Below, piece by piece: positions 1-12,268 of a stretch of 64,000 nt of DNA; the stretch's first letter is position 1, and every line of letters starts with the position of its first letter. Made by a program: the position numbers and the translations under genes. The notes beneath the pieces are model-generated. The model made no database searches. It had not been told where the DNA came from and saw only the letters and a program-made list of their open reading frames with translations. The stretch covers positions 1 through 64,000 of the forward strand of contig NZ_KB903434.1 of NCBI RefSeq assembly GCF_000379765.1, in the 5' to 3' direction. The stretch is from Flexithrix dorotheae DSM 6795. Its GTDB lineage: Bacteria; Bacteroidota; Bacteroidia; Cytophagales; Flammeovirgaceae.

Positions 1-274
1 AGTGTTTTTCCGTTTTATCAAACAAGAACTCAATGTCAGCCACCTGGTATCACTCAATAAAAATGGTATTGAAGTCATCATTTATATGACCCTAATAGTT
101 GCCATGCTCCTGCTTATTTACAAAAAAGCTAATAATATTGGTTATAAAACTGCTAAAAAAAGGTTTAAAACCGAAATAAGAGAACTTGCTATTGCCATTA
201 TGATTTATCTAGCTGGAGGTAACCCGGAACGAATCTTTAAAAATAAAAATGGTCGGAATTTCTTCCGACCATGA
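1..274 (+). pseudogene. C-terminal fragment of an IS4-type DDE transposase (cut by window edge)
   Basis: The reading frame enters from the left edge and ends at a TGA at 272-274. The visible 90 residues resemble the C-terminal end of IS4-family transposases of Bacteroidota: a basic segment, then a hydrophobic strand (YMTLIVAMLLLIYKK), then a helical tail ending in a GGNPERIFK-like motif. The first codon in view is GTG and is probably internal, so the true start lies outside. It is therefore not possible to say whether the gene is intact or a remnant. No paired terminal inverted repeat can be checked from one end. The family call rests on remembered similarity of the tail. Confidence 0.55.
251..270. 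repeat. 8-bp inverted repeat overlapping the transposase stop
   Basis: GGTCGGAA and TTCCGACC form a perfect 8-bp stem with a 4-base loop, ending one base before the transposase stop codon. There is no T-run after it, so it is a poor intrinsic terminator. It may still block read-through from the element, or belong to its terminal region. Confidence 0.4.
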
Positions 275-324: not shown

Positions 325-753
325 CTATCGTCTGAACGCCAAGACAGCAGCGCCACAATAACTTTTTGAGTTTTGGAATGTAAAACTTAAATAATAAATC
401 CCTGTTGCCCTGCATTTAAAGGTCCAACCTTCCAAAAATTTATTATTGTAAAAGCTAGAAACCATTTTGTTCCTTTTGGAATCGTATAAAGTCCCAATTA
501 AACCCTGAGCACTTCCATCTTTTCCTGATATTCTAATCTGATAATTTGTATCTTTACTAAATACACAGGTATACTCTACCTTTTTCCTTGTACCTCCTCT
601 ACCATCAATTCTATAACTTTTTGAAAATTGAAACCCAGATTCCAAAGATTTCATACTTTTATTTACATAAAGCTCTGAATTACATTGTGCAAAGGCCGAA
701 TTCAGGAAAAAACTGGTAATCAATACAATCCCTGCAATAATTACTTTTTTCAT
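325..753 (-). CDS. small exported protein of unknown function
   Basis: A 142-residue protein with a clear signal peptide (basic start, hydrophobic core, cleavage near SAFAQ). The mature part has four cysteines, which could form two disulfides in the periplasm or outside. The rest alternates polar and aromatic residues as in a small beta-sandwich. I do not recognise the family. It lies 28 bases downstream of the lipoprotein gene at 782-1690 on the same strand, so the two are probably co-transcribed, and it may be a partner of the lipoprotein and the ABCG transporter upstream. Start is ATG at 753. Confidence 0.7.
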   Translation of the reverse strand: MKKVIIAGIVLITSFFLNSAFAQCNSELYVNKSMKSLESGFQFSKSYRIDGRGGTRKKVEYTCVFSKDTNYQIRISGKDGSAQGLIGTLYDSKRNKMVSSFYNNKFLEGWTFKCRATGIYYLSFTFQNSKSYCGAAVLAFRR

Positions 754-781
754 AAATAATTTCTGTTTTCCGGTTAAAAAG

Positions 782-1690
782 TTACTTGATTATTTTATTC
801 CTAATTGATTTTAATAAACTGGTAATACTATCAATATCCCGGTCAGAAATCTTTATTACACTTTTGGTGTTGTCAACAACCACAAGTACACCGTTTTTCT
901 CAACCATTGTGGGTTGCCCATAAACTGTTTCAATCTCTATTTGATCATAGATGCTTTGAAGCTTTTTCAAATCAGTAATTAATTCACCAAATCCATTTTT
1001 TGTTTTATAAACATCAAGAACAAGTAAAATTCTATCAAGTACAATTTTCTGTTCTCCGATCTTTTCTTTTAAGACCTCATTTTTTGTTCTATTGTGAACC
1101 AGAGTGGTTAAGTAAACTGCTTCAATCCAGCCACCAGTCAACAACAAAATGCTTAAATATTCCCTTTTTTGTTCCCTGAGGTGATAATTAATTTTTTCAA
1201 AATTTGCAGTGGTTGTTCTTAAAAGAGCCTCTAAATCTTCATCTGCGCTTTCTGCCAATTTCTTTAAAGTAGCATAATCAAAGAATTGTCCTATTGTAAG
1301 GCCTTCTGCCAGATTTTGAACTGAATTTAGATAATTCAGAGCATCCTGATTTTTGTTGTAAATATTTGAATATCCTAAATCTGTTCCATAAATACCCAGG
1401 TTTAAGGCTTTATCAAAATTAGTATTATAATTTGAAACCCTGCCAGGATCATTTAGGTCGGCTTTATTATAAACTGAACCAACTTCTTTAATTAACAATG
1501 AAATTTCTAATGGAGATGGAATTGATTGCAAGATATCATTTATAATGTCGTCATCCACCGCAGAGGCTTCTTCTTGTACAGGATCTACAGATCCGGCTAA
1601 TTGCTGAGGGCTTTCGCTGCTTGATGCATTATTTGCCCCACATCCTACTAATAGTGTTATTGATAGTATGATTGAATACAGGTTTCTCAT
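782..1690 (-). CDS. lipoprotein of unknown function next to ABCG transporter
   Basis: A protein of about 302 residues with a lipoprotein signal ending in the lipobox LVGC (Cys17), followed by a serine/acid-rich linker. I chose the ATG at 1690. A TTG five codons upstream (1705) is in frame but less likely. The body is mostly alpha-helical with long amphipathic stretches, and a short beta segment (GVLVVVDNTKSV) lies near the C-terminus. No catalytic motif is visible. The gene follows the TerB-ABCG transporter gene with an 81-base gap on the same strand. A role as a lipid-anchored accessory of that transporter is an inference from position only. Confidence 0.7.
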   Translation of the reverse strand: MRNLYSIILSITLLVGCGANNASSSESPQQLAGSVDPVQEEASAVDDDIINDILQSIPSPLEISLLIKEVGSVYNKADLNDPGRVSNYNTNFDKALNLGIYGTDLGYSNIYNKNQDALNYLNSVQNLAEGLTIGQFFDYATLKKLAESADEDLEALLRTTTANFEKINYHLREQKREYLSILLLTGGWIEAVYLTTLVHNRTKNEVLKEKIGEQKIVLDRILLVLDVYKTKNGFGELITDLKKLQSIYDQIEIETVYGQPTMVEKNGVLVVVDNTKSVIKISDRDIDSITSLLKSIRNKIIK

Positions 1691-1786
1691 GATTATTTTT
1701 TTCAAAATTAAAGTGAGACTTTAAATAGATTAAAAATTTTTAAAACTATGAAAACAAAGTTTTTGATCAACGATCACTTAGTATTA

Positions 1787-4700
1787 TTATTTTCTTTTAA
1801 ATCTTCTCGAACTTACATTACTAAATTGCCTAATTAACTTTGACAACCAATCATAATATAAGGAAATGTAGAGCATAAAAGTCATTAACCAAATCACCGC
1901 CAAATTGAAAACATAAGTATCAAAATATTTCCCAAAAAATGGTTTTTCTGAGGCTAAAAATTGTGCCCTATAATTTAGTGGATTTTCCGAAAGTTTTGGC
2001 ATCTGGTATACAGGATCAACAATTTGGATAATTTCTCCATTTTCCACATCAATCCTTTCTTCGGCCGAACTATTCTTCATTAGGCTAGTCAACTGATCAT
2101 TAGAATACCTATCAATCAGCTCCTTAAGGTTTTCTCCTTCTTTAAGCCTTTGCTGCATAACATAAAGGATAGAATCCTTAGCCTCACCTGCATTTACTAA
2201 GTTAAGGCTATAAAATCCTTTTGAATCTTCCAAATGATACCATAATCGGGATGAAACTGATTCATCATAATTTTCAATAGATATATTTTTAAAATCTTCA
2301 AGGTTTCCTTCTCCAGCATTTATGGTGTAAGGATCTTTCAAAAACTCCGATTTGAGAATCTGTAGATTAGCTGCAGCTAAAGCTTTTGTAGAATCATTTT
2401 TTTGCTCAAGCAAAGAATTAGTCGCTGTAATTAACTCCTGCATTTTTGGAATCCAGTAGGCTGCTTTAAAGTTATTGATGCTTTCTTGCTTTTCGTATTC
2501 AAATATCCCACTCTGGTATTTGTTTCCCTTAAATTGCTCCACAGCCAATGCTTCGTAGGACCATCTGGAAGCCATCCCATCAGCAATTAGAGGAACCATT
2601 CCTCTTTTACTTATGACATTATTTAATTTATCAAAGTCAAAAATCACCCCACTTAAAACCAATTGAGGAATAATTAATAATGGAATTAGAATATATACTG
2701 TAACCGCAGAATTAAATGCAGACGAAATATTTAACCCAAGCACATTGGCATGGCAAGAAACCGTAAATAAAACAAGCCAATACATTATATTTAGCCCCTC
2801 AATCTCTAATATCGTATTGCCAATCAAAACGAAACTCAGGGTTTGAATACCTGAAAGGGAAAATAAGATAATCAGTTTGGAAATTAAGTAACTACTTCTA
2901 CTCAAATTCAAAAACTTCTCTCTTTTAAGAATTTTTCTATCCCTAATAATTTCCTCAGCACTTACTGACAATCCCATAAAAAGGGAAACAATTATACAGA
3001 TTAGTATATAGGCAGGTATATTATCATTATGCCTATAAATATATTCCATATCATGGCTTCCTTTATATCTAATAATAAGGGCCAATATTAAAGCCAACAA
3101 TGGAGCTTCAACTAAATTAATAGCCAAATATTGGGTATTACTAATCTTAGACAGAAAATCCCGAATGGCAAAAATCACTGTTTGATTTAGCTTTGTTGGG
3201 ATCTTTAAAGTTTTGGGAGGTTTTTCTTTTATATCTTCCTTTCTATCCAAAACATGTTCTTCCTGAAAGCATTTGTGCCATTCCATTGGCTGAACCTTTC
3301 TCCTGTTTGTAAATTCTCCATATTCATCCACCACACGGGCTTCAATAATATTGAAAATCTGTTCCGGATTAACATTACCGCAGGTATGGCACTGCCCCTG
3401 CTCACTGTCAACTTGTCCTGAGGCTTTTTTGAAGTAAACAACTGCCTCTACTGGATTACCATAAAAGATTGGATAGCCACCAGTATCCATCAGAAACATC
3501 TTATCAAACATTTTATATATATCTGAAGATGGCTGGTGAATTACGACAAATATTAACTTACCTTTTAAAGACAATTCTTTTAAAAGGTCAATTACGTTTT
3601 CAGAATCCCGGGACGATAATCCAGATGTGGGTTCATCTACAAACAAAACAGCTGGTTCTCTAATTAATTCGAGAGCAATGTTTAATCTTTTTCTTTGCCC
3701 ACCACTTATTTTTTTATTTAATACATTTCCAACCTTTAGATCTTTAATTCTATCCAATCCAAGACTCTCTAAAACTTCCATTACACGCTTGTCCAATTCC
3801 TCCTTGGTAGAACCTTTGAAACAAAGCTTCGCGTTGTAAAACAGGTTTTGGTAAACTGTGAGGTCTTCTATCAATAAATCATCCTGGGCTACATACCCTA
3901 TAATCCCCTCGATCTTATCTTTTTCGGTGTAAATATTAAATCCATTTATCAACACTTCTCCTTTAGAAGGATTTTCTAAACCGGCTAAAGTGTTTAACAA
4001 TGTAGTTTTACCAGCTCCACTGGCTCCCATTATTCCAATGAGCTTTCCAGTATTTTCTGAAATATTTACATTTCTAAGACCGATATCCCCATTTGGAAAT
4101 TTAAATTCCAGTCCATAAACATTGAAGGAAATTTTATCGGCCTCTTTGTCACTATTGTATCTTGAAACAAGGTCACTGTAATATAATGGAGCTCCTTTAG
4201 GAGTTTTAAATACACTTCCAGGTGAAAACTGTAAAATACTGCCTTTTTTCACTGGCATACTATTGAGATATATTTCATCAATCCCAGTGTATTTCGTGAA
4301 ATAAAGACCAACACTTTTAACCCTAACAAAAATAATTTCTCCATCAAGAAGTCCTGAATCAATAAATTTAATTTTACTTCCTTCAGGAGGCATCTCATCA
4401 TCGAAAATCAGGATATCTTCATGATTTAATTTTGATGAGTGCTCTTCAATTACAAAACTTTCAATTAATTTATATTCATCGGTAGGAACATTAAATACAG
4501 TGGATACAGTATTTATAATTTCCATCCTCTGAGGAGTAAATGATCTATCTGCTGCTAATAATTCCAGAAGCTTACTTAATACAATAACCTTCTGTTTTTG
4601 GTTTAGGGTTTTATTAATTTTCCTACAAATCCCTAGTGTCCTCACAGAATCCTTTACATTGGTCAACCTCTTTTTAGCTCGTTTTTTTCCACCATCCTCA

Positions 4701-4900
4701 TCCTCTGCAGGAACTAATTCCTTTACACCATAATCTGAAAATTTATCGTACAATGCAATATATTCCTTAACAGTATTTGTATCCAATTCCTGCTTAAAAT
4801 ACTTTATTACAAAGTTTCTTTCACCCTCTGTAACCCCTCCATCCTGCTTGGAGATTATGGCAAATAACTGGGTTAGTGCTTTTAGGATTTCTTCACTCAT
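1787..4900 (-). CDS. TerB / FHA-like / ABCG-type ATP-binding and permease fusion protein
   Basis: A 1037-residue half-transporter. Residues 1-150 resemble a TerB-type helical domain. Residues about 165-250 look like a degenerate FHA domain (IYLNSMPVKKGSI stretch). The ABC ATPase follows: Walker A GASGAGKTT (about 292-300), signature SGGQRK (399-404), Walker B AVLFVDEP (417-424) and the switch histidine in VVIHQP. A linker at about 504-545 holds CHTC and a later HKC, a possible metal site. The C-terminal half is an ABC-2/ABCG membrane domain with a long extracytoplasmic loop before the last helix. ABCG-type proteins usually export lipids or hydrophobic compounds; the substrate here is unknown. 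The gene lies downstream of the SiaC-like gene. Confidence 0.9.
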   Translation of the reverse strand: MSEEILKALTQLFAIISKQDGGVTEGERNFVIKYFKQELDTNTVKEYIALYDKFSDYGVKELVPAEDEDGGKKRAKKRLTNVKDSVRTLGICRKINKTLNQKQKVIVLSKLLELLAADRSFTPQRMEIINTVSTVFNVPTDEYKLIESFVIEEHSSKLNHEDILIFDDEMPPEGSKIKFIDSGLLDGEIIFVRVKSVGLYFTKYTGIDEIYLNSMPVKKGSILQFSPGSVFKTPKGAPLYYSDLVSRYNSDKEADKISFNVYGLEFKFPNGDIGLRNVNISENTGKLIGIMGASGAGKTTLLNTLAGLENPSKGEVLINGFNIYTEKDKIEGIIGYVAQDDLLIEDLTVYQNLFYNAKLCFKGSTKEELDKRVMEVLESLGLDRIKDLKVGNVLNKKISGGQRKRLNIALELIREPAVLFVDEPTSGLSSRDSENVIDLLKELSLKGKLIFVVIHQPSSDIYKMFDKMFLMDTGGYPIFYGNPVEAVVYFKKASGQVDSEQGQCHTCGNVNPEQIFNIIEARVVDEYGEFTNRRKVQPMEWHKCFQEEHVLDRKEDIKEKPPKTLKIPTKLNQTVIFAIRDFLSKISNTQYLAINLVEAPLLALILALIIRYKGSHDMEYIYRHNDNIPAYILICIIVSLFMGLSVSAEEIIRDRKILKREKFLNLSRSSYLISKLIILFSLSGIQTLSFVLIGNTILEIEGLNIMYWLVLFTVSCHANVLGLNISSAFNSAVTVYILIPLLIIPQLVLSGVIFDFDKLNNVISKRGMVPLIADGMASRWSYEALAVEQFKGNKYQSGIFEYEKQESINNFKAAYWIPKMQELITATNSLLEQKNDSTKALAAANLQILKSEFLKDPYTINAGEGNLEDFKNISIENYDESVSSRLWYHLEDSKGFYSLNLVNAGEAKDSILYVMQQRLKEGENLKELIDRYSNDQLTSLMKNSSAEERIDVENGEIIQIVDPVYQMPKLSENPLNYRAQFLASEKPFFGKYFDTYVFNLAVIWLMTFMLYISLYYDWLSKLIRQFSNVSSRRFKRK

Positions 4901-5194
4901 TTATCTGGATTGATAAAATTTTTAAATAAGAAACTATATCTCAAAAATTTTCAATTAAAAAAAACTAATATCTTAACGGAGTTGGCAAAGAATATTGCTG
5001 ATGATAAGTAAAAAAGTGCAAGTTAAATTTAGGAGAATAAGAATGAGTAAGGCTTTCTTAGGAGGCAAGCTTTTTTCCTGCTTGATAAATTAATTTTGTG
5101 CAGGTGTTTACGAAAAGCAAAAAATGTTTGCTTTGTTATAGATTAGAGAAGAATTTCCCATAGCACTTTTTATACTATGGGAAATTATAAAACC
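4901..5194. other. 294-base gap between SiaC-like and ABCG genes
   Basis: No gene is seen. Apart from the hairpin at 5152-5186, there is a small CAAGC/GCTTG stem near 5068-5085. The gap presumably carries the promoter of the transporter gene (minus strand), but I see no convincing match to the Bacteroidota consensus TTTG/TAnnTTTG. Confidence 0.4.
5152..5186 (-). terminator. 12-bp hairpin just downstream of the SiaC-like gene
   Basis: AATTTCCCATAG pairs perfectly with CTATGGGAAATT across an 11-base loop, 8 bases past the SiaC-like stop codon. The stem is strong but the minus-strand U-tract is poor (CTTCTCT). It could be a terminator, an attenuator that reduces transcription into the transporter gene, or a 3' stabilising hairpin. 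Confidence 0.5.
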
Positions 5195-5557
5195 TTAGTA
5201 AGTTTTAAAATCGAAAGGAACATCAACTAATTCAGAGAATTCTTCTCCTGCTTCTTCCATATCTTCATCATCCTCATGAAAGTACCAAACTACGTTAGCA
5301 CCTTCTACCTCTTCAAGTTTAGATAAAATATCTAAAATTAATTTGGAAGAAGCGGTATTAAAGTATTCTAATTTAAATAAAAAAGGAGTATTATCATTAG
5401 GATTATCCTTGTACTGCTCCAACCAATCCAAAACAGGCTGGAAAAATTCAGCTGAATCCTCCGGTAAGGATCTTCCAGATAATTCAAAAACTTTGTTTTC
5501 TTTATCTAAAAGTATTTTTGGAGTATCTTCAGTCCCTTCTAAGTTTAAAATATTCAT
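5195..5557 (-). CDS. siaC: SiaC-type regulatory phosphoprotein (DUF1987)
   Basis: A 120-residue acidic protein of the DUF1987/SiaC family. In Pseudomonas aeruginosa SiaC is the switch protein phosphorylated by SiaB and dephosphorylated by SiaA; unphosphorylated SiaC activates the diguanylate cyclase SiaD. Here the motif EYFNTASSK places a threonine at residue 68, the same number as the phosphosite reported for SiaC. The C-terminus is rich in Asp and Glu. The gene is 15 bases after the SiaB-like kinase gene and forms an operon with it. No diguanylate cyclase is in the window, so its output partner is unknown; the ABCG transporter is the next gene downstream. Confidence 0.88.
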   Translation of the reverse strand: MNILNLEGTEDTPKILLDKENKVFELSGRSLPEDSAEFFQPVLDWLEQYKDNPNDNTPFLFKLEYFNTASSKLILDILSKLEEVEGANVVWYFHEDDEDMEEAGEEFSELVDVPFDFKTY

Positions 5558-5572
5558 ATTATTAAGCGTTTA

Positions 5573-6115
5573 TTAGATTCTAGGAATAGTGGTTTTTAAT
5601 GAAAAGAATGAAAGTTCTTGGTTTATTGGCTCAAAGTCAAAAACTAATTTTTTACCTGATTTCCGAGCCATATCTACAAATCCTAATCCAGCCCCTCCTT
5701 TCTCTGAAAGAGAACCGTTTCGGATAATTTCTTTATATAAAGATTTAAGACCATCCTTATCAAGTTTATTAATGTTGGTAAGTTTTTCAGACATACTTTC
5801 AACATTATTGGAAAGGATAGCATTTCCTGAGGTTATGAAATATTCATCTTCCTGCTTTCCAATCATAAATATGGCATTGTTCTTACCATAAAGCTCCACA
5901 TCAAAGCTTTCTGAATGCTTACAAATGTTTTGAAGACATTCTACCATAACATTGAAAACTTTTCTTTTAATACCAGATTCTTCGCCAAAAGAATCCATAT
6001 TTCTTTCTGCCATGGCTAATACTGATTTAGTTATTTCCTGGGTAAACTCACCCTCGTAAACCAATATCAGGTTTTTCTTCAACATGGTCTTGTGTAAATC
6101 ATAGATATATTTCAT
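5573..6115 (-). CDS. siaB: SiaB-family protein kinase (HATPase-like)
   Basis: A 180-residue protein of the SiaB family (DUF6272), cytoplasmic, with a GHKL-type ATP-binding fold. The N-box-like helix reads VECLQNICKHS and the G-box-like loop is GGAGLGFVDMARKSG. Its expected job is to phosphorylate the SiaC-type protein encoded 15 bases downstream. The gene lies 103 bases after the PP2C sensor-phosphatase gene, giving the phosphatase-kinase-substrate order of a SiaABC partner switch. Start is ATG at 6115. Confidence 0.85.
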   Translation of the reverse strand: MKYIYDLHKTMLKKNLILVYEGEFTQEITKSVLAMAERNMDSFGEESGIKRKVFNVMVECLQNICKHSESFDVELYGKNNAIFMIGKQEDEYFITSGNAILSNNVESMSEKLTNINKLDKDGLKSLYKEIIRNGSLSEKGGAGLGFVDMARKSGKKLVFDFEPINQELSFFSLKTTIPRI

Positions 6116-6218
6116 AACTCGTTATTTTTCAGCTACCTAACTCTTATGGTTGGATTCTTAATACTATAATTTATAAGAATTAAAATTATTGTTTTATATG
6201 TATTGAAATTTGTATTTA

Positions 6219-9200
6219 TCAGAACTTTATTCCTATCATTAATACATCATCCGTCTGTCTTTTACCTTCTTTCCAATCATTAAATTCTTGGATGAATCGG
6301 TCTCTAATGTCAGCCATATTTTTATGGTTTCTTTCGGAAATTATTGCCCTGATTCTTTGGTTACCAAATTTTTTATTTAATTCTCCTCCAAATTGATCTG
6401 GGAATCCATCTGAGAACATATAATACTCATCCCCTTGTCTTATGTCCATTCTATGGGTGGTAAACTCAGTTCTGGTTTTATATTTTCCTCCTCCAATTGG
6501 GAACTTATTTCCTTTAACCTGTACTAATTCGTTATTGGTAAATAAATATAATGGTCTGTTGGCTCCCGCATATTCAATGAAATTATCTTTGTAGTTCACC
6601 CTCAAAAGTGCTATATCCATACCATCTCTTGTAGTTGCATCCTCATCATCCTGTCTCAATGTTCTGGTAACACCAGCATTCAGACGATCCAAAACCACTC
6701 CGGCAGAAAGATTCTTCCTCCCATTAATTATATCATTCAGAATAAAATAACCAATCAGAGATATTAATGCTCCTGGAACTCCGTGTCCAGTACAATCAGC
6801 TGCTGCTATATAGATATCATCTCCTTTTTGAATAAACCATGGAAAATCCCCACTTACAACATCTCTTGGTTGATAAAAAATAAATGAATCCTCAAATACC
6901 TGCTTTATGATTCTGTCGTCAGGTAAAATTGCAGTTTGAATTCTTTTAGCATAATTAATACTCTCCGTAATTTTCTTATTATTTGCTCTAATCTCAACTT
7001 CCGTTTTCTTCCTTTCTGTGATATCGTGAGATACAAATAATACTGACTCTACCTTATTATTTTCTCCAAATTCAGGAATTGCATTTACCTGCATCACTCG
7101 CTCTTCTCCGTCAAGAATTGGGAAATTCATCTCTATAGAAACTTTTTCCTTTTTCTCAAGAACCTCTTCAAAAATTTCTTTCCAGGACGCTTTTATTCCC
7201 CCATCAATTTCAATTTCCTCAAGCGATTTGGATAGATAATACTCTGGTTTTTGTTTTGTGAGGGTAGAAATTACAGGATTAATGTAAAAGAAAATTCCCT
7301 TGTTATTTAACCTCTTTATCAAATCTAGTGAATTTTCAGAAAGTGCCTGCATCTGGCTTCTCATTCGTTCCTCTTTCTCGGCCCTTCTTCTTTCCGTAAT
7401 ATCCCTAGAATTAATTACAATTCCCTCAATTGCAGAATCATTAAGTAGGTTATTTCCTGTAGCCTCCAACCAAACAGTTTCGCCATCACTCTGTTTATAT
7501 TCATACTGAACTGTTATACTTCTATCAGGATACTTTAATAGTTTTTCGAACATACCTTCAAATGTTTTCACACTATTAGGATGAACATTTTCTATATCTT
7601 TAAAGCCTATTAAATCCTCTGCATAGTAACCTAAAATTGGTTCAACTGAAGGGCTAACATATCTTACTACTCCATCTTTTTCATAAATTGTTATTACCTC
7701 AGAAGCATTTTCAAGTAATACTTGTAGCCTTTTTTGACTTCGGTTTACTTCTAATATTTGATCTTCTAATCTGTGATTAGTCCTTTTTAGTTCTTCCTGA
7801 GTAGCTTCCATTTCTTCAGCATTCTGTCTAAGAATTTCTTGCTGAAGTTGTAATTCCTCACTCATTTTCTGAGATTCCTGAAGTAGGTTTACAGTCTTCT
7901 CATTTACCTTAATGTTGAAAATCGTTCTGGCGATAATTACACTAATTTCTTCTACGAAAGATATTTGGGTCTTATTGAATTTATCGAATCCGGCAAATTC
8001 CATTATTCCATATATCTTTTCATCTGTGATCAATGGAACCAATAATAAGCAACTAGGTCTTTGGTCCCCAAGTAGCCCAGATGAAATGGTTACATAGTCA
8101 TGGGGAATTTCAGTTCTTAAAATCACCTCTTGTTCTGCTGCACATTGCCCCACTAATCCCTCTGCAAATTTAAAGCTCGCTTTAAGGTATTTCTTTTTAC
8201 CATAGGCATAACTCGACTTTATTTCAAATAAAGGATTATTGGAATCTTCATCATTTAAGGTATAAAATGCTCCTTGGATAGCTCCAATTTTTTCAACCAT
8301 ATAACCCGTAATCTCATCACCAAGATCTTCAAGGTTATTATGTAATCTTAATAATTGACTTATTTCGGCAATACCCCCTACAATCCAATTTCTTTCTTTA
8401 TCCTTTTTTTCAGACTCCCTGATACTTTCACTCATCGTTACAAGAGCATTTCCTAAAAGGTCATCCTCGCTCATTGGAGTAAAGTCTGCATCATAATTAC
8501 CTTCTCCAATTTGATGGGCAAAATCAGCGGTATTTTTCAATGACGATACTAAATCCTGGACTGCAAAAGCCATTTCTCCAATTTCATCATTAGAGGATTT
8601 AGTAGATCCTTCTGGAAGTATACCCTTTGAGACTAACTTTAATTTATTTTTTAGAGATAAAACCGGATTTGTTAGAAATTTAGAGAAAATTAAAGAAATA
8701 AAAATAGAGAAGATTAAAATTATCCCACCAGACCTTAAAAAAGTCCATATTAAGGATTCCTGCACACTATTTATCTCTTCTTCATCCATTTTTACAATCA
8801 TACCCCATTTGGTATTAGGAATGAAGGACCAACATGCTAAAGTTTTATCATCATTATAATCAATATCCCAAATAAAATCAGTTGAATCATTCATTACCGC
8901 TTTAGTTGCAGCCATAGAATAATCGTTATTCTGAGGATCAACTACAGTAGTCATTAGTCCCACATCCGACTTTCGCAGTGGACTAATAAACCTAACCATG
9001 GAACCAGATACTTTACAAAGCAAAATTTCACCTGATTCACCCAAACCTGAATAATCTTGAAGGATAGGAAATATTTTTTCACTTACATTTACCTCAATAA
9101 TTGCATATCCTGTAGATTCGTTGAATTCATTTTGTAACTCAGAAGCTACATATAAACAAACCTTTTCATCCAGCCCAATAAAAGGATCGCTATAGTAAAT

Positions 9201-9677
9201 ATGTCTTGCTTCAGATTTTACTTCGTTGAAGTTTCTATAAACTTGCCCTACAAAAACATCATTGGATGCCTTGTTATATTGATTCGTTACAACTCCATCA
9301 TTGTCTGTAATTATTATATTTTTATACCCGTAGTTTTCATAAATAGGCTGAAGGTTAGAAAGAGAATTATCAGAAAAAGATTCAGCATTCGGCTGAATAG
9401 AATCAATGGCTACCTCAATAGGCTCATCCTCCAAATGGGATTCATTTCCAAAATTGAATTTCTTAATGATGCCAAGATTAGCTTCTAATTGATTGAATAA
9501 TCCACTTATTTCAGCACTTTTAGAAGAATTGATTACACTTAATGTCTCCCTATATCTACTCTGGATCGACTCCTGACTCTGGATGTAGGAAAGGTAACTA
9601 ATGGCGAGAATTGAGATGATTACCACTGAAAGTAACAGTAGGGTAATCTTGGTGCCTATTTTTATTTTTTTAAACAT
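6219..9677 (-). CDS. membrane sensor phosphatase: Cache-like/HAMP/GAF/PAS/PAS/SpoIIE-PP2C (SiaA-like)
   Basis: A 1152-residue protein. A first membrane helix (about 13-33) is followed by a roughly 280-residue extracytoplasmic sensor region of dCache type, a second helix (about 312-335), HAMP, a GAF domain (about 440-590), a coiled coil, two PAS domains (typical RDITERRR and HDITERKK ends) and a C-terminal SpoIIE-type PP2C phosphatase. Metal-site motifs are present: SGDF, ADCTGHGVPGAL, FSDGFPDQ and the late TDD. The position after SGDF, usually Tyr, is Pro. By family and context it should dephosphorylate the SiaC-type protein encoded downstream when its sensory domains are triggered. Confidence 0.9.
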   Translation of the reverse strand: MFKKIKIGTKITLLLLSVVIISILAISYLSYIQSQESIQSRYRETLSVINSSKSAEISGLFNQLEANLGIIKKFNFGNESHLEDEPIEVAIDSIQPNAESFSDNSLSNLQPIYENYGYKNIIITDNDGVVTNQYNKASNDVFVGQVYRNFNEVKSEARHIYYSDPFIGLDEKVCLYVASELQNEFNESTGYAIIEVNVSEKIFPILQDYSGLGESGEILLCKVSGSMVRFISPLRKSDVGLMTTVVDPQNNDYSMAATKAVMNDSTDFIWDIDYNDDKTLACWSFIPNTKWGMIVKMDEEEINSVQESLIWTFLRSGGIILIFSIFISLIFSKFLTNPVLSLKNKLKLVSKGILPEGSTKSSNDEIGEMAFAVQDLVSSLKNTADFAHQIGEGNYDADFTPMSEDDLLGNALVTMSESIRESEKKDKERNWIVGGIAEISQLLRLHNNLEDLGDEITGYMVEKIGAIQGAFYTLNDEDSNNPLFEIKSSYAYGKKKYLKASFKFAEGLVGQCAAEQEVILRTEIPHDYVTISSGLLGDQRPSCLLLVPLITDEKIYGIMEFAGFDKFNKTQISFVEEISVIIARTIFNIKVNEKTVNLLQESQKMSEELQLQQEILRQNAEEMEATQEELKRTNHRLEDQILEVNRSQKRLQVLLENASEVITIYEKDGVVRYVSPSVEPILGYYAEDLIGFKDIENVHPNSVKTFEGMFEKLLKYPDRSITVQYEYKQSDGETVWLEATGNNLLNDSAIEGIVINSRDITERRRAEKEERMRSQMQALSENSLDLIKRLNNKGIFFYINPVISTLTKQKPEYYLSKSLEEIEIDGGIKASWKEIFEEVLEKKEKVSIEMNFPILDGEERVMQVNAIPEFGENNKVESVLFVSHDITERKKTEVEIRANNKKITESINYAKRIQTAILPDDRIIKQVFEDSFIFYQPRDVVSGDFPWFIQKGDDIYIAAADCTGHGVPGALISLIGYFILNDIINGRKNLSAGVVLDRLNAGVTRTLRQDDEDATTRDGMDIALLRVNYKDNFIEYAGANRPLYLFTNNELVQVKGNKFPIGGGKYKTRTEFTTHRMDIRQGDEYYMFSDGFPDQFGGELNKKFGNQRIRAIISERNHKNMADIRDRFIQEFNDWKEGKRQTDDVLMIGIKF

Positions 9678-9720
9678 TTCTGAATAAAGTTTCCCTGCGA
9701 GATTGTCAAAATTTTTGATA

Positions 9721-10542
9721 TTAATTATCCACCTCTACTTCAGATAATTCTTCCTCCTCTAAAAAAAGCTCAATGGCCTGCTTTAAAAAATCTATATCAC
9801 CATTCTTAAATTCAGAAAATGATGCGATTTCTAACACTCCTTTAACGTGTTCTTTTAATTTTATTGGAAGAATTGCCAAATTATTTGGGGTGGCATTTCC
9901 TAAACCAGAAATGATAGAGATATAGCCATCTGGCACCGAATCTAATACGATATCTTTCCCGCTTCCAGCTACCTGACCTGCTATTCCCTCTCCATATTCA
10001 TACCTAAGTTTTTTACTTTCAGGAACTTGGTAAGCATAACCTGCTTCCAACTCAATATATCTAATTCCGTCTTCTTCAGTACTTAGATATAATGCTCCCA
10101 TACTAGCATCAAGTTCCTTACATATTTCTGATAATGCTCCCTTATAATTAAGTCTTTCTTCCGAACTGTGAAGTATAGATTTAAACCTATGTAGCCTTTC
10201 AGTAAAAACAGAACCCTGATCCTGGCCAATGGTTGAATCAAAATCTTCATCCTTCCTTTCTTTCTCCACATAGATTATATTCTCCTTAGCATTATGGAAT
10301 GCTTTTAAGGAAAAAGAAAAAAGTAATAATAATACGAGAAAAAGATTAGCTCCCAGCAAAAGATAAACAGGCATTGAAGCTTCTTTGGCAATATTGATTT
10401 TTGAAATTTCAATAATCCCTATCGATTTTAAGATTCTTTCCGGGTTTCCCATTAGTTCCACCACCGAAAATCCCGATACTACTACAAATAATACAATTAG
10501 GGAGATGAGGAAAGCATTAATATTCTTATTGATAAATTTCAT
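9721..10542 (-). CDS. membrane-anchored GAF-domain protein
   Basis: A 273-residue protein with two N-terminal membrane helices (about 10-30 and 60-80) enclosing a short extracytoplasmic loop, then a charged linker and a C-terminal GAF domain (about 125-260). The GAF domain is visibly related to the one in the phosphatase encoded next: both have a G(I/L)(A/V)GQ turn, a P..Y(V/I)(T/S)I(S)SGL segment and a G(I/V)(M/L)E(F/I)A strand. The gene ends 43 bases before the phosphatase gene on the same strand. It likely tunes or scaffolds that phosphatase (inference). No output domain is present. Confidence 0.8.
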   Translation of the reverse strand: MKFINKNINAFLISLIVLFVVVSGFSVVELMGNPERILKSIGIIEISKINIAKEASMPVYLLLGANLFLVLLLLFSFSLKAFHNAKENIIYVEKERKDEDFDSTIGQDQGSVFTERLHRFKSILHSSEERLNYKGALSEICKELDASMGALYLSTEEDGIRYIELEAGYAYQVPESKKLRYEYGEGIAGQVAGSGKDIVLDSVPDGYISIISGLGNATPNNLAILPIKLKEHVKGVLEIASFSEFKNGDIDFLKQAIELFLEEEELSEVEVDN

Positions 10543-10779
10543 AACTGTAAGTTTTACGAAAGAAGAATGTCGCTACTTTTTAGCCTTGCATAATTTTTTA
10601 TAATTTCGATAACCGTTAATGCATGACTAATTTGCAATGCATATCAATACATTAAATAGCCCAGCTAATTCTGAAATATTGTTTAAGTTAATTATTTGAA
10701 AGTGATCGTATAGTTCAGGGGGTATTAACCTGAATTCAAAAGAGTACCCTTTTTATACTTAAGAAATCAATTTTTATTA

Positions 10780-11379
10780 TTAACCAGACCTAAGCATTTG
10801 GTCTAATTCTAACAAAAACTCAATTATTTGATCTGTTTTTAGCACATGGTCAATCTCCGTTACTGATAATGCAGAATTAGGCATAGTACTAATCATACTT
10901 TCCTCAGGATCTTGAATAATGGTCAGACCTCCCCTATCCTTAATCTTCTGCATGCCAAGCGCTCCATCCTTATTTGCACCTGACATTAATATTCCAATTA
11001 GTTTATCTCTGTAGGCATAAGCCGCAGACTCTAAGGTAATATCGATTGCAGGCCTCGAATTATTTATTAATCCTTCTGTTGAGAGGGACATGGTATTTCC
11101 CAATTCAATGGACAAATGATAATTTGCAGGAGCTAGATAAACCAACTCTCTTTTGATTGATTCCTTATCAAACGGCTCATGAATTGATTTTAAGCTTTTT
11201 ATAGACAAAGCCTCCACAAATCCATGACGAACATGCTTCAAACGATGCAAGCATAAAAATATTGGCAGTGGAAAATCCTTAGGAATAACCGATAATATCT
11301 TCGTAATCGGCTGAAAACTTCCTGCTGATCCTCCTATTGCAATTGCCTTATATTTTGTACTTAATTTGAATCTCGTCAT
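10780..11379 (-). CDS. cheB: stand-alone CheB-type methylesterase domain
   Basis: A 199-residue cytoplasmic protein made up only of the CheB C-terminal esterase domain. The catalytic serine is in AIGGSAGS (Ser18), the histidine in LCLHRL (His45) and the aspartate in the SGANKDGALG loop. The N-terminal receiver domain of classical CheB is missing, so the esterase is not under phosphorelay control in cis. The family removes methyl groups from, or deamidates, glutamates on signalling proteins. It is 61 bases after the CheR gene; no chemoreceptor, CheA or CheW gene is in the window, so it probably serves a non-chemotaxis function. Confidence 0.88.
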   Translation of the reverse strand: MTRFKLSTKYKAIAIGGSAGSFQPITKILSVIPKDFPLPIFLCLHRLKHVRHGFVEALSIKSLKSIHEPFDKESIKRELVYLAPANYHLSIELGNTMSLSTEGLINNSRPAIDITLESAAYAYRDKLIGILMSGANKDGALGMQKIKDRGGLTIIQDPEESMISTMPNSALSVTEIDHVLKTDQIIEFLLELDQMLRSG

Positions 11380-11440
11380 TGCGATACCAACCCGGCTTTT
11401 GATTTAAATGTTTTTAGATTTTTTGTGTGATATTTTTCCT

Positions 11441-12268
11441 TTAGTCTTTTATTTTTTTATAAATCTTTTCTTCATTATTTACTACAATAAATTTATTGGC
11501 AATATCACACCAAATTAAAGACTCTTTGGACCCAATAGCCAGGTATCCGTATCGGAAAAGGCTCTCATGCAATTTATATAACACATCGTTTTGCAAAGTC
11601 TGATTAAAGTAAATCATTACATTTCTGCACAAAATCAAATCGAACTTTGAAAATACTACCCCCTTTACCAAATCATGTTTTCTGAATGATACCTGCCGCA
11701 TTAAATTAGGATCAAAAACAGCTTTACCATTTTGTTCCTGAAAATATTTGTCTATGGTATATTTCCCTTCAAACCTTTCATAATTCGAAGAATTTAATTC
11801 CATATTCTTAAGGCTCACAGTCCCTTTTTTTGCCCTGTCAATTATGGCAGTGTCAATATCAGTTGCAATTATGTTTGAACGATCTAATACTCCCATTTCC
11901 TCTAGTAAAATTGTCATGGAAAGTACTTCCTCGCCTGATGAACATCCTGCATGCCATACATTAAGCTTATTGTGATTCAGCAGAATATTTGGAATGATTT
12001 GTTCTTTGAGTACCGACCAAAAAGACGGATCTCTAAACATCTCTGTAACATTTACAGTGATTTCGGAAACAAACTCCTCAAAAAAAGATGGTGTAGATTC
12101 TAATTTATCGATCAAAGAATCTATTGTTTTAAATTTGTACAATTCTACGATGCGTTTAATCCTACGCTTAAATGAAGACATAGCATAGTTCTTAAAGTCA
12201 TAATCGTATTTATCTTTGATTAACTCTGTGAGTTTCCTAAGTTCCGCAATTTCTATTTCCTGCTGCAT
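11441..12268 (-). CDS. cheR: CheR-type glutamate O-methyltransferase
   Basis: A 275-residue protein with the CheR N-terminal helical domain (about 1-70, basic patch SSFKRRIKRI) and a SAM-dependent methyltransferase domain. Motif I reads HAGCSSGEEVLS, and the conserved RNVMIYF follows the LILC strand. It uses S-adenosylmethionine to methylate glutamates of a partner protein. It is the first gene of a pair with the CheB domain gene, 61 bases apart. Because no methyl-accepting receptor is encoded nearby, the substrate could be one of the adjacent sensor proteins, whose coiled coil is glutamate- and glutamine-rich; this is an inference. Confidence 0.9.
   Translation of the reverse strand: MQQEIEIAELRKLTELIKDKYDYDFKNYAMSSFKRRIKRIVELYKFKTIDSLIDKLESTPSFFEEFVSEITVNVTEMFRDPSFWSVLKEQIIPNILLNHNKLNVWHAGCSSGEEVLSMTILLEEMGVLDRSNIIATDIDTAIIDRAKKGTVSLKNMELNSSNYERFEGKYTIDKYFQEQNGKAVFDPNLMRQVSFRKHDLVKGVVFSKFDLILCRNVMIYFNQTLQNDVLYKLHESLFRYGYLAIGSKESLIWCDIANKFIVVNNEEKIYKKIKD

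Follow-up and report, generated by a model that had tools for sequence, protein, structure and literature searches.

What does a SiaABC-type partner switch control in a bacterium in which no diguanylate cyclase is found? The question is raised by the first 64,000 nucleotides of contig NZ_KB903434.1 of Flexithrix dorotheae DSM 6795 (assembly GCF_000379765.1; Bacteroidota, Cytophagales; hereinafter the window), where a sensor phosphatase (SiaA), a kinase (SiaB) and a small phosphoprotein (SiaC) are encoded in a block of nine minus-strand genes running from position 12268 down to 325. In Pseudomonas, where the switch governs a biofilm signal, the gene order is SiaA-SiaB-SiaC-SiaD, with SiaD being a diguanylate cyclase, whereas here SiaC is followed by a single-chain ABCG-like exporter with a TerB domain, a lipoprotein and a small exported protein, and SiaA is preceded by CheR, CheB and GAF-domain proteins. 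A preliminary description, made from the letters of the window alone, had raised the idea that the switch controls transport. Having followed this up by comparative genomics and structure comparisons, we consider it likely that the output of this SiaABC-type switch is the adjacent ABC exporter; the comparative evidence suggests that the exporter is turned on or off by a phosphorylated partner protein, both here and in many related bacteria.

Conservation of the gene neighborhood

The nine-gene block is real and not a chance neighborhood: all nine open reading frames (ORFs) are where the preliminary description placed them, and their association recurs in relatives. Among 58 related genomes, SiaC is found in 45, an exporter relative (E ≤ 1e-60) in 43 and both in 42; SiaC occurs alone in G022, G033 and G049, the exporter alone in G030 (sister type only), and 12 genomes have neither. 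A tree of 130 exporters, from which fragments of less than 850 amino acids (e.g., those of G008 and G011) were excluded, splits at its midpoint into a clade with the window exporter (n = 106) and a sister clade (n = 24). SiaC lies within 1.6 kb of 97 of the 106 window-clade exporters as compared to 2 of the 24 in the sister clade, so that the link stood up to the co-occurrence check proposed in the preliminary description. Taking the type from this tree, or from 85–86% identity for the G008 and G011 fragments, 39 of the 58 relatives code for a window-type exporter and SiaC adjoins it in 37 of these 39, adjacency being counted by hand from match positions; in G026, G030, G043 and G044, of the 43 exporter-bearing relatives, only the sister type is present with no SiaC beside it.

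Of 40 loci fetched from the relatives, 18 preserve the complete order CheR-CheB-GAF-SiaA-SiaB-SiaC-TerB/ABCG-lipoprotein-exported protein on a single strand; this count is not a rate, since the 40 loci were selected, ten being included as copies that lack SiaC. A wider search returned at least 578 confirmed matches, and among the best 80 of these, which lean towards the exporter type of the window, SiaC is on the same strand within 1.6 kb at 59 loci, SiaA, SiaB and SiaC are all present at 51 and all nine genes at 37, as scanned with profiles built from the relatives. The titles of these records include Cytophagales, Bacteroidales, Salinivirgaceae, Marinilabiliaceae and metagenome-assembled genomes (MAGs) labelled Chlorobiota. 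At L211 and L150 the exporter is adjacent to SiaB-SiaC on the opposite strand. The record of L139, titled Candidatus Planktophila lacus, by name an actinobacterium, has a window-type exporter, probably through a binning error.

A distinct class of SiaC accompanies the exporter

In the SiaC tree, 93 of the 94 exporter-linked proteins fall within a single clade (support 0.916), which also takes in one SiaC whose exporter is on the opposite strand. We compared the residues around the phosphorylation site in SiaC proteins scoring at least 60 bits, with identical proteins dropped and loci L001–L005, L010–L017, L116 and L117 left out as duplicates or not needed. Tyr65, Asn67 and Thr68, which align with the SiaC of structure 6kko, are present in all 91 same-strand exporter-linked SiaC with SiaB nearby, and Thr68 in two of the three exporter-linked SiaC without SiaB nearby. 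The adjoining residue separates the classes: it is alanine in 89 of the 91 and serine in all 43 SiaB-linked SiaC without an exporter (40/40, plus 3/3 with a GGDEF gene nearby), with Ala69 in the remaining groups being found in 3/3 exporter-linked SiaC without SiaB nearby, 1/3 with an opposite-strand exporter and 1/5 with neither exporter nor SiaB. In the Pseudomonas complex, as excerpted from PMC8457831, SiaC residues 65 and 67–69 contact SiaD and phosphorylated Thr68 blocks binding; the mostly class-specific residue 69 is thus an output-contacting position there. The SiaD-contact positions are also more conserved within the exporter-linked class (p 9e-5), a result that core conservation alone could yield.

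The other switch components preserve their catalytic residues. Glu59 and Asn63 of SiaB are invariant in 97/97 cluster SiaB, and the PP2C part of SiaA is structurally like SiaA 6k4e (E 5.8e-34), with the metal-binding aspartates D944, D961, D1090, D1143 and D1144 conserved in 79/79. Given this conservation of the kinase and phosphatase residues across the linked genes, we regard the switch as probably functional. Among the variants of this module, L102 has three tandem SiaB genes ahead of SiaC, and L177 a SiaB-like ORF of 380 amino acids, about twice the usual length.

Cyclase or exporter after SiaC

The preliminary description had noted no diguanylate cyclase in the window, and this holds genome-wide: there is no GGDEF match (PF00990) in the 9.5-Mb Flexithrix genome (101 contigs, 99.3% complete), nor in 56 of the 58 relatives, with an identical search matching 8 of 14 control genomes. 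Matches were seen in G011, an assembly of 490 contigs that is 77% complete, and in G046, where the match is weak and partial. In a sample of the phylum, 18 of 296 genomes code for SiaC, of which five (G000, G035, G200, G239, G102) combine a full-length exporter relative with the absence of GGDEF, and the other 13 show the reverse, GGDEF without any full-length exporter relative; these are small numbers, with three of the five exporter genomes belonging to one family (f19), the exporter of G102 (L211) falling in the sister clade, and only the best two candidates per genome having been scored in one step. G326 and G334 show partial exporter matches of 37–39% identity that start at residue 259 or later. 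The order SiaA-SiaB-SiaC-GGDEF, with the GGDEF gene directly after SiaC, is seen in G179 and G187, and in G323 the GGDEF ORF is one ORF further from SiaC and SiaB is split or broken up. As a single phylum has both GGDEF-type and exporter loci, SiaC can be followed either by a cyclase or by this exporter, the putative output being swapped. By locus, the Pseudomonas-like order, SiaA-SiaB-SiaC followed by GGDEF, is displayed by L198 and L199 of family f47 in the same phylum, and by L207, which looks broken up.

The exporter and its likely transport partners

The exporter combines an ABC_tran domain (275–426) and an ABC2_membrane domain (573–760) in a single chain (Pfam), and what we take to be its Walker A, signature and Walker B residues are invariant in 16 sequences (alignment A1). 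Yeast PDR-type and ABCG proteins top the list of related solved structures. The preliminary reading of its domains as TerB, FHA-like and ABCG was right for TerB (26.1 bits against a cut-off of 24.4) and the two ABC domains; no FHA family is matched by sequence in Pfam, and the FHA-like part is recognizable by fold only. The model of the N-terminus, with a predicted local distance difference test score (pLDDT) of 90.8, comprises a helical part that corresponds to TerB and another that resembles FHA domains. The former aligns with 2ou3 (Z 8.3, root-mean-square deviation 5.2, 138 aligned) and 2h5n (Z 9.8, deviation 3.5, 115 aligned), Z values that a helical bundle can reach by chance, and the latter gives a Foldseek probability of up to 1.00 with a best E of only 0.008 and Z up to 7.8. 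TerB is the part that diverges most between the two exporter clades (mean 0.285 versus 0.112 for the ATPase), but conservation is in any case lower in the N-terminal part (mean column identity of 48% in alignment A2 versus 59% for the whole protein in A1, from different sequence sets). Four TerB positions that separate SiaC-linked from other exporters (E4, Q19, R125, I128) were considered as a docking site and dropped, an internal charge swap being possible. Padloc matches to the ATPase look generic, and a Phrogs search returned nothing below E 0.04.

Among the same best 80 loci, 56 of the 59 that have SiaC and 14 of the 21 that lack it show a lipoprotein-family gene on the strand of the exporter and no more than 9.5 kb away from it. 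The lipoprotein matches no Pfam family and its model (pLDDT 87.3) has no convincing fold match in the PDB; the small exported protein likewise has no Pfam match. Because the lipoprotein accompanies the exporter both with and without SiaC, the locus suggests a transport unit of exporter and lipoprotein, often with the exported protein, joined to a regulatory unit of CheR, CheB, the GAF protein, SiaA, SiaB and SiaC.

Split loci and missing genes

Genomes in which the block has come apart bear on which parts belong together. G036 has CheR-CheB-GAF-SiaA-SiaB-SiaC, with Ala69, at a different locus from the exporter; G006 has three separate loci, one for the exporter, one for SiaB-SiaC and one for CheR-CheB-GAF; and in G355 an Ala69 SiaB-SiaC pair is distant from the exporter. 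Hence, in all three, exporter-type SiaC is retained with SiaB where exporter and SiaC are apart. In G018 and G007 it is the Che genes that are separate from SiaC-exporter. Full clusters such as L119 and L129 have a gene ahead of CheR that is, judging by its motif, cytidine-deaminase-like, and some Cyclobacteriaceae/Cytophagales MAGs lack everything between this gene and SiaC, so that in L128 and L138 it is followed directly by SiaC-exporter; in L143, L168 and L190 SiaC is absent as well. Searches of the L128, L138 and L134 genomes found no SiaB, and those of L128 and L138 no CheB; L134:2-355, at a contig edge, is an exporter-linked SiaC with proline replacing Thr68. Counted by genome, there are three MAGs, G359, G360 and G361, in which no SiaB was found genome-wide and SiaC is still beside the exporter. 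If SiaC did not itself serve the exporter, its persistence there without its kinase would be difficult to account for.

CheR, CheB and a possible methylation target

Ser18, His45 and Asp138 of CheB, which we take to be its catalytic residues, are conserved in 66/66 cluster CheB. No chemoreceptor (MCP) is detected in the cluster with Pfam, the three MCP matches of the Flexithrix genome all lying outside it. The cluster-bearing genomes G001 (84% complete), G031, G035, G037 and G052 have no MCP match and, therefore, no chemoreceptor found as a CheR/CheB substrate, and the cluster CheB is the sole CheB found in them. SiaA or the GAF protein is a plausible substrate and the natural guess. Glu628 of SiaA, considered as a candidate methyl-site signature, is present at 63 of 67 loci with CheB versus 4 of 11 without (L124, at a contig edge, being left out), figures uncorrected for 100 columns or kinship, and weakened in that for nine of the 11 loci a CheB does exist, either at another place in the genome or immediately beyond the stretch fetched (G018, G023, G041 and the genomes of L160, L165, L167, L174, L185 and L186). 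Of the two loci with no CheB found, L169 lacks Glu628 and L122 keeps it. We tentatively extend the proposal as follows, viewing the extension as possible but less likely than not: a methylation-tuned sensor phosphatase, with CheR/CheB acting on SiaA and not on a chemoreceptor, may set SiaC phosphorylation, with SiaC as a removable regulatory subunit of the exporter, thereby wiring chemotaxis-like adaptation to transport. On the Che side, MCP signalling domains occur within ORFs of about 2,100 amino acids in G003, G009, G012, G014, G016 and G017, and a tandem CheR pair is seen at L142, L144, L148, L149, L156–L159 and others (records labelled Bacteroidales or similar).

Proposed mechanism and alternatives

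We posit that the membrane sensor SiaA would dephosphorylate SiaC at Thr68 and that SiaB would rephosphorylate it. Unphosphorylated SiaC would bind the exporter and change its activity in one or the other direction, the most likely binding sites being the cytoplasmic TerB/FHA-like N-terminus and the ATPase, while phosphorylation would break the contact by analogy with SiaC-SiaD. SiaA activity would thereby couple a signal to the export of a putative substrate, with the lipoprotein and the exported protein as part of the transport half. The helical TerB part is a candidate site because SiaC grips a helical stalk in SiaD (PMC8457831, in excerpt), and the ATPase because of the MlaFB precedent: the excerpted PMC7367683 describes Escherichia coli MlaB, a STAS protein, as binding the ABC ATPase MlaF via a Thr-containing face, with Thr52Glu weakening the binding.

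Several observations weigh against this reading. According to the same excerpt, MlaB Thr52Ala kept binding and lost function, so that a simple phospho-switch is not established for MlaB. The N-terminal part is also present in the sister exporter clade, most of which lacks SiaC (relatives there align from residue 1 in several genomes), and is therefore not a dedicated SiaC receptor. A mean-field coevolution analysis of 96 pairs of SiaC and exporter N-terminus gave no contact map, its top pairs being a few rare-lineage positions. The SiaC positions that separate the classes show no significant enrichment for SiaD contacts (p 0.14; the top 20 positions include 5 of the 14 contacts), and residue 69 is imperfect as a class marker, with Ser69 in two of the 91 exporter-linked SiaC (L140, L102) and Ala69 in the unlinked SiaC of L009, from the Flexithrix genome and with no SiaB beside it, and of L225 (G006). 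L143, L168 and L190 keep the exporter without SiaC, and G356 (L172) has an exporter, yet its single SiaB gene, SiaB being what was searched for there, adjoins a Ser69 SiaC. The missing SiaB genes may be due to MAG incompleteness. Finally, the Flexithrix genome has four other SiaC genes (L006–L009), which fall outside the exporter-linked clade and have no ABCG relative within the 16–17 kb fetched around each; hence, SiaC proteins have other uses.

These four genes, together with the 294-bp gap between SiaC and the ABCG gene here, are what favors regarding the exporter as an operon passenger that is merely co-transcribed, with SiaABC acting on a transcription regulator or second-messenger enzyme elsewhere. 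We think this rather unlikely, given that exporter-type SiaC persists in the three genomes where the exporter lies elsewhere, that SiaC stays with the exporter in the three MAGs without SiaB found, and that the exporter-linked SiaC proteins group apart in the tree and have, at a contact site, a residue largely specific to their class. That SiaA, SiaB and SiaC are homologous to their Pseudomonas counterparts, and that SiaABC-GGDEF loci occur in the phylum, would favor a diguanylate cyclase encoded elsewhere as the target; the GGDEF search leaves this explanation close to refuted, and we give it hardly any credence. The FHA-like part of the modelled exporter N-terminus points to an opposite logic, in which it would bind phospho-SiaC or another phosphoprotein and phosphorylation would make the contact, comparable to the FHA domains of Rv1747 in the excerpted literature. 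FHA domains usually bind phosphothreonine through an Arg and His motif. As this motif is not evident in the N-terminal consensus, no FHA family is matched by sequence, and SiaC is kept where no SiaB is found, we view such a contact as improbable.

Organization of the block

The successive intergenic gaps from CheR to the exported protein measure 61, 237, 43, 103, 15, 294, 81 and 28 bp. In 119 such pairs from related loci (overlapping loci kept), the SiaC-ABCG gap spans 15–585 bp, the median being 106 bp. A pattern scan found a minus-strand terminator-like hairpin at 272–249, beyond the last gene, and none in 4901–5194; both results are weak, with 6 sites in the region versus 6.5 expected in shuffles. 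The Pfam families above cut-off in the block are SiaC, DUF6272 (the SiaB family), SpoIIE/PP2C, GAF_2, PAS, CheB_methylest, CheR_N, CheR, ABC_tran, ABC2_membrane and TerB. Accordingly, the families first named for CheR, CheB, the GAF protein, SiaB and SiaC are borne out by Pfam or NCBIfam scores above cut-off; for SiaA, GAF, PAS and PP2C were correctly named, whereas the Cache match is below cut-off (22.4 versus 45 bits) and no HAMP family is reported by Pfam at E ≤ 0.001. As for the additional SiaC genes of Flexithrix, those of L007 and L009 have no SiaB match beside them, and the Ala69 protein is encoded at L009:8417-8818.

Table 1. Features of the minus-strand block in the window
Feature	Coordinates	Strand	Basis
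CheR-type methyltransferase, stand-alone	11441..12268	-	Pfam CheR 142.4 bits, CheR_N 38.0 bits
CheB methylesterase domain, no receiver domain, 199 aa	10780..11379	-	Pfam CheB_methylest 154.3 bits, residues 13-188, sole family
GAF-domain protein, hydrophobic N-terminal segments	9721..10542	-	Pfam GAF_2 43.9 bits; membrane segments read off sequence
SiaA-like sensor phosphatase (weak Cache, GAF, two PAS, SpoIIE/PP2C)	6219..9677	-	Pfam; 6k4e match
SiaB-family kinase	5573..6115	-	NCBIfam NF038262 (SiaB_fam_kinase) 179.7 bits, cut-off 85; resembles 6kko_A
SiaC-family phosphoprotein, exporter-linked class (Y65, N67, T68, A69)	5195..5557	-	Pfam SiaC 132.8 bits; 6kko alignment; clade
TerB / FHA-like / ABC ATPase / ABC-2 permease exporter, ABCG-like half transporter	1787..4900	-	Pfam TerB, ABC_tran, ABC2_membrane
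Lipoprotein, orphan family, likely transporter partner	782..1705	-	Invariant Cys22 at lipobox-like site
Small exported protein, orphan family	325..753	-	Signal-like N-terminus; conserved position
Terminator-like hairpin past last gene	249..272	-	Pattern match only

Relation to known systems and implications

The closest known system is SiaABCD of Pseudomonas aeruginosa, in which, as here, phosphatase, kinase, SiaC and output protein are encoded together, the genes being co-transcribed according to the excerpted literature; the PP2C, kinase and Thr68 residues are kept. It differs in having the cyclase SiaD where an ABC exporter is found here, and the Flexithrix proteins differ in the GAF and PAS domains of the sensor, in Ala69 in place of Ser69, and in scoring below the three NCBIfam SiaABCD equivalog cut-offs (SiaA 206 versus 700, SiaB 84 versus 225 and SiaC 84 versus 150 bits). 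MlaF-MlaB, of the E. coli phospholipid transporter, offers a precedent for the placement of a small STAS-like protein on an ABC ATPase that we propose; however, it is a different transporter type, Thr52 phosphorylation is without experimental evidence by the excerpt of PMC7367683, and here a kinase and a phosphatase are encoded alongside. Mycobacterium tuberculosis Rv1747, in the literature excerpts, is likewise a single-chain ABC exporter, with FHA domains, that is modulated by the Ser/Thr kinase PknF encoded with it, but it is itself the PknF substrate, whereas in Flexithrix a separate phosphoprotein is proposed and the exporter has a TerB domain. Both catalytic domains of chemosensory CheR/CheB are present in the cluster, unlike the chemoreceptor and the CheB receiver domain, and several cluster-bearing genomes have no MCP match at all. 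Other literature drawn on, also in excerpt, comprises PMC7647112 and PMC3908365. A few chance co-mentions aside, the titles and abstract openings searched include no paper that connects an ABC exporter with SiaC/DUF1987 or with a TerB domain.

If the proposal is true, these loci would represent a Ser/Thr partner switch that has a transporter as its output, and would provide a role for SiaC proteins in bacteria in which no diguanylate cyclase is found, as well as a possible non-chemoreceptor substrate for CheR/CheB. They would also supply natural cases for a question that the excerpted PMC7367683 leaves open for MlaB, namely whether phosphorylation governs a STAS-like protein on an ABC ATPase, to which the candidate kinase and phosphatase encoded beside SiaC-exporter are directly relevant.

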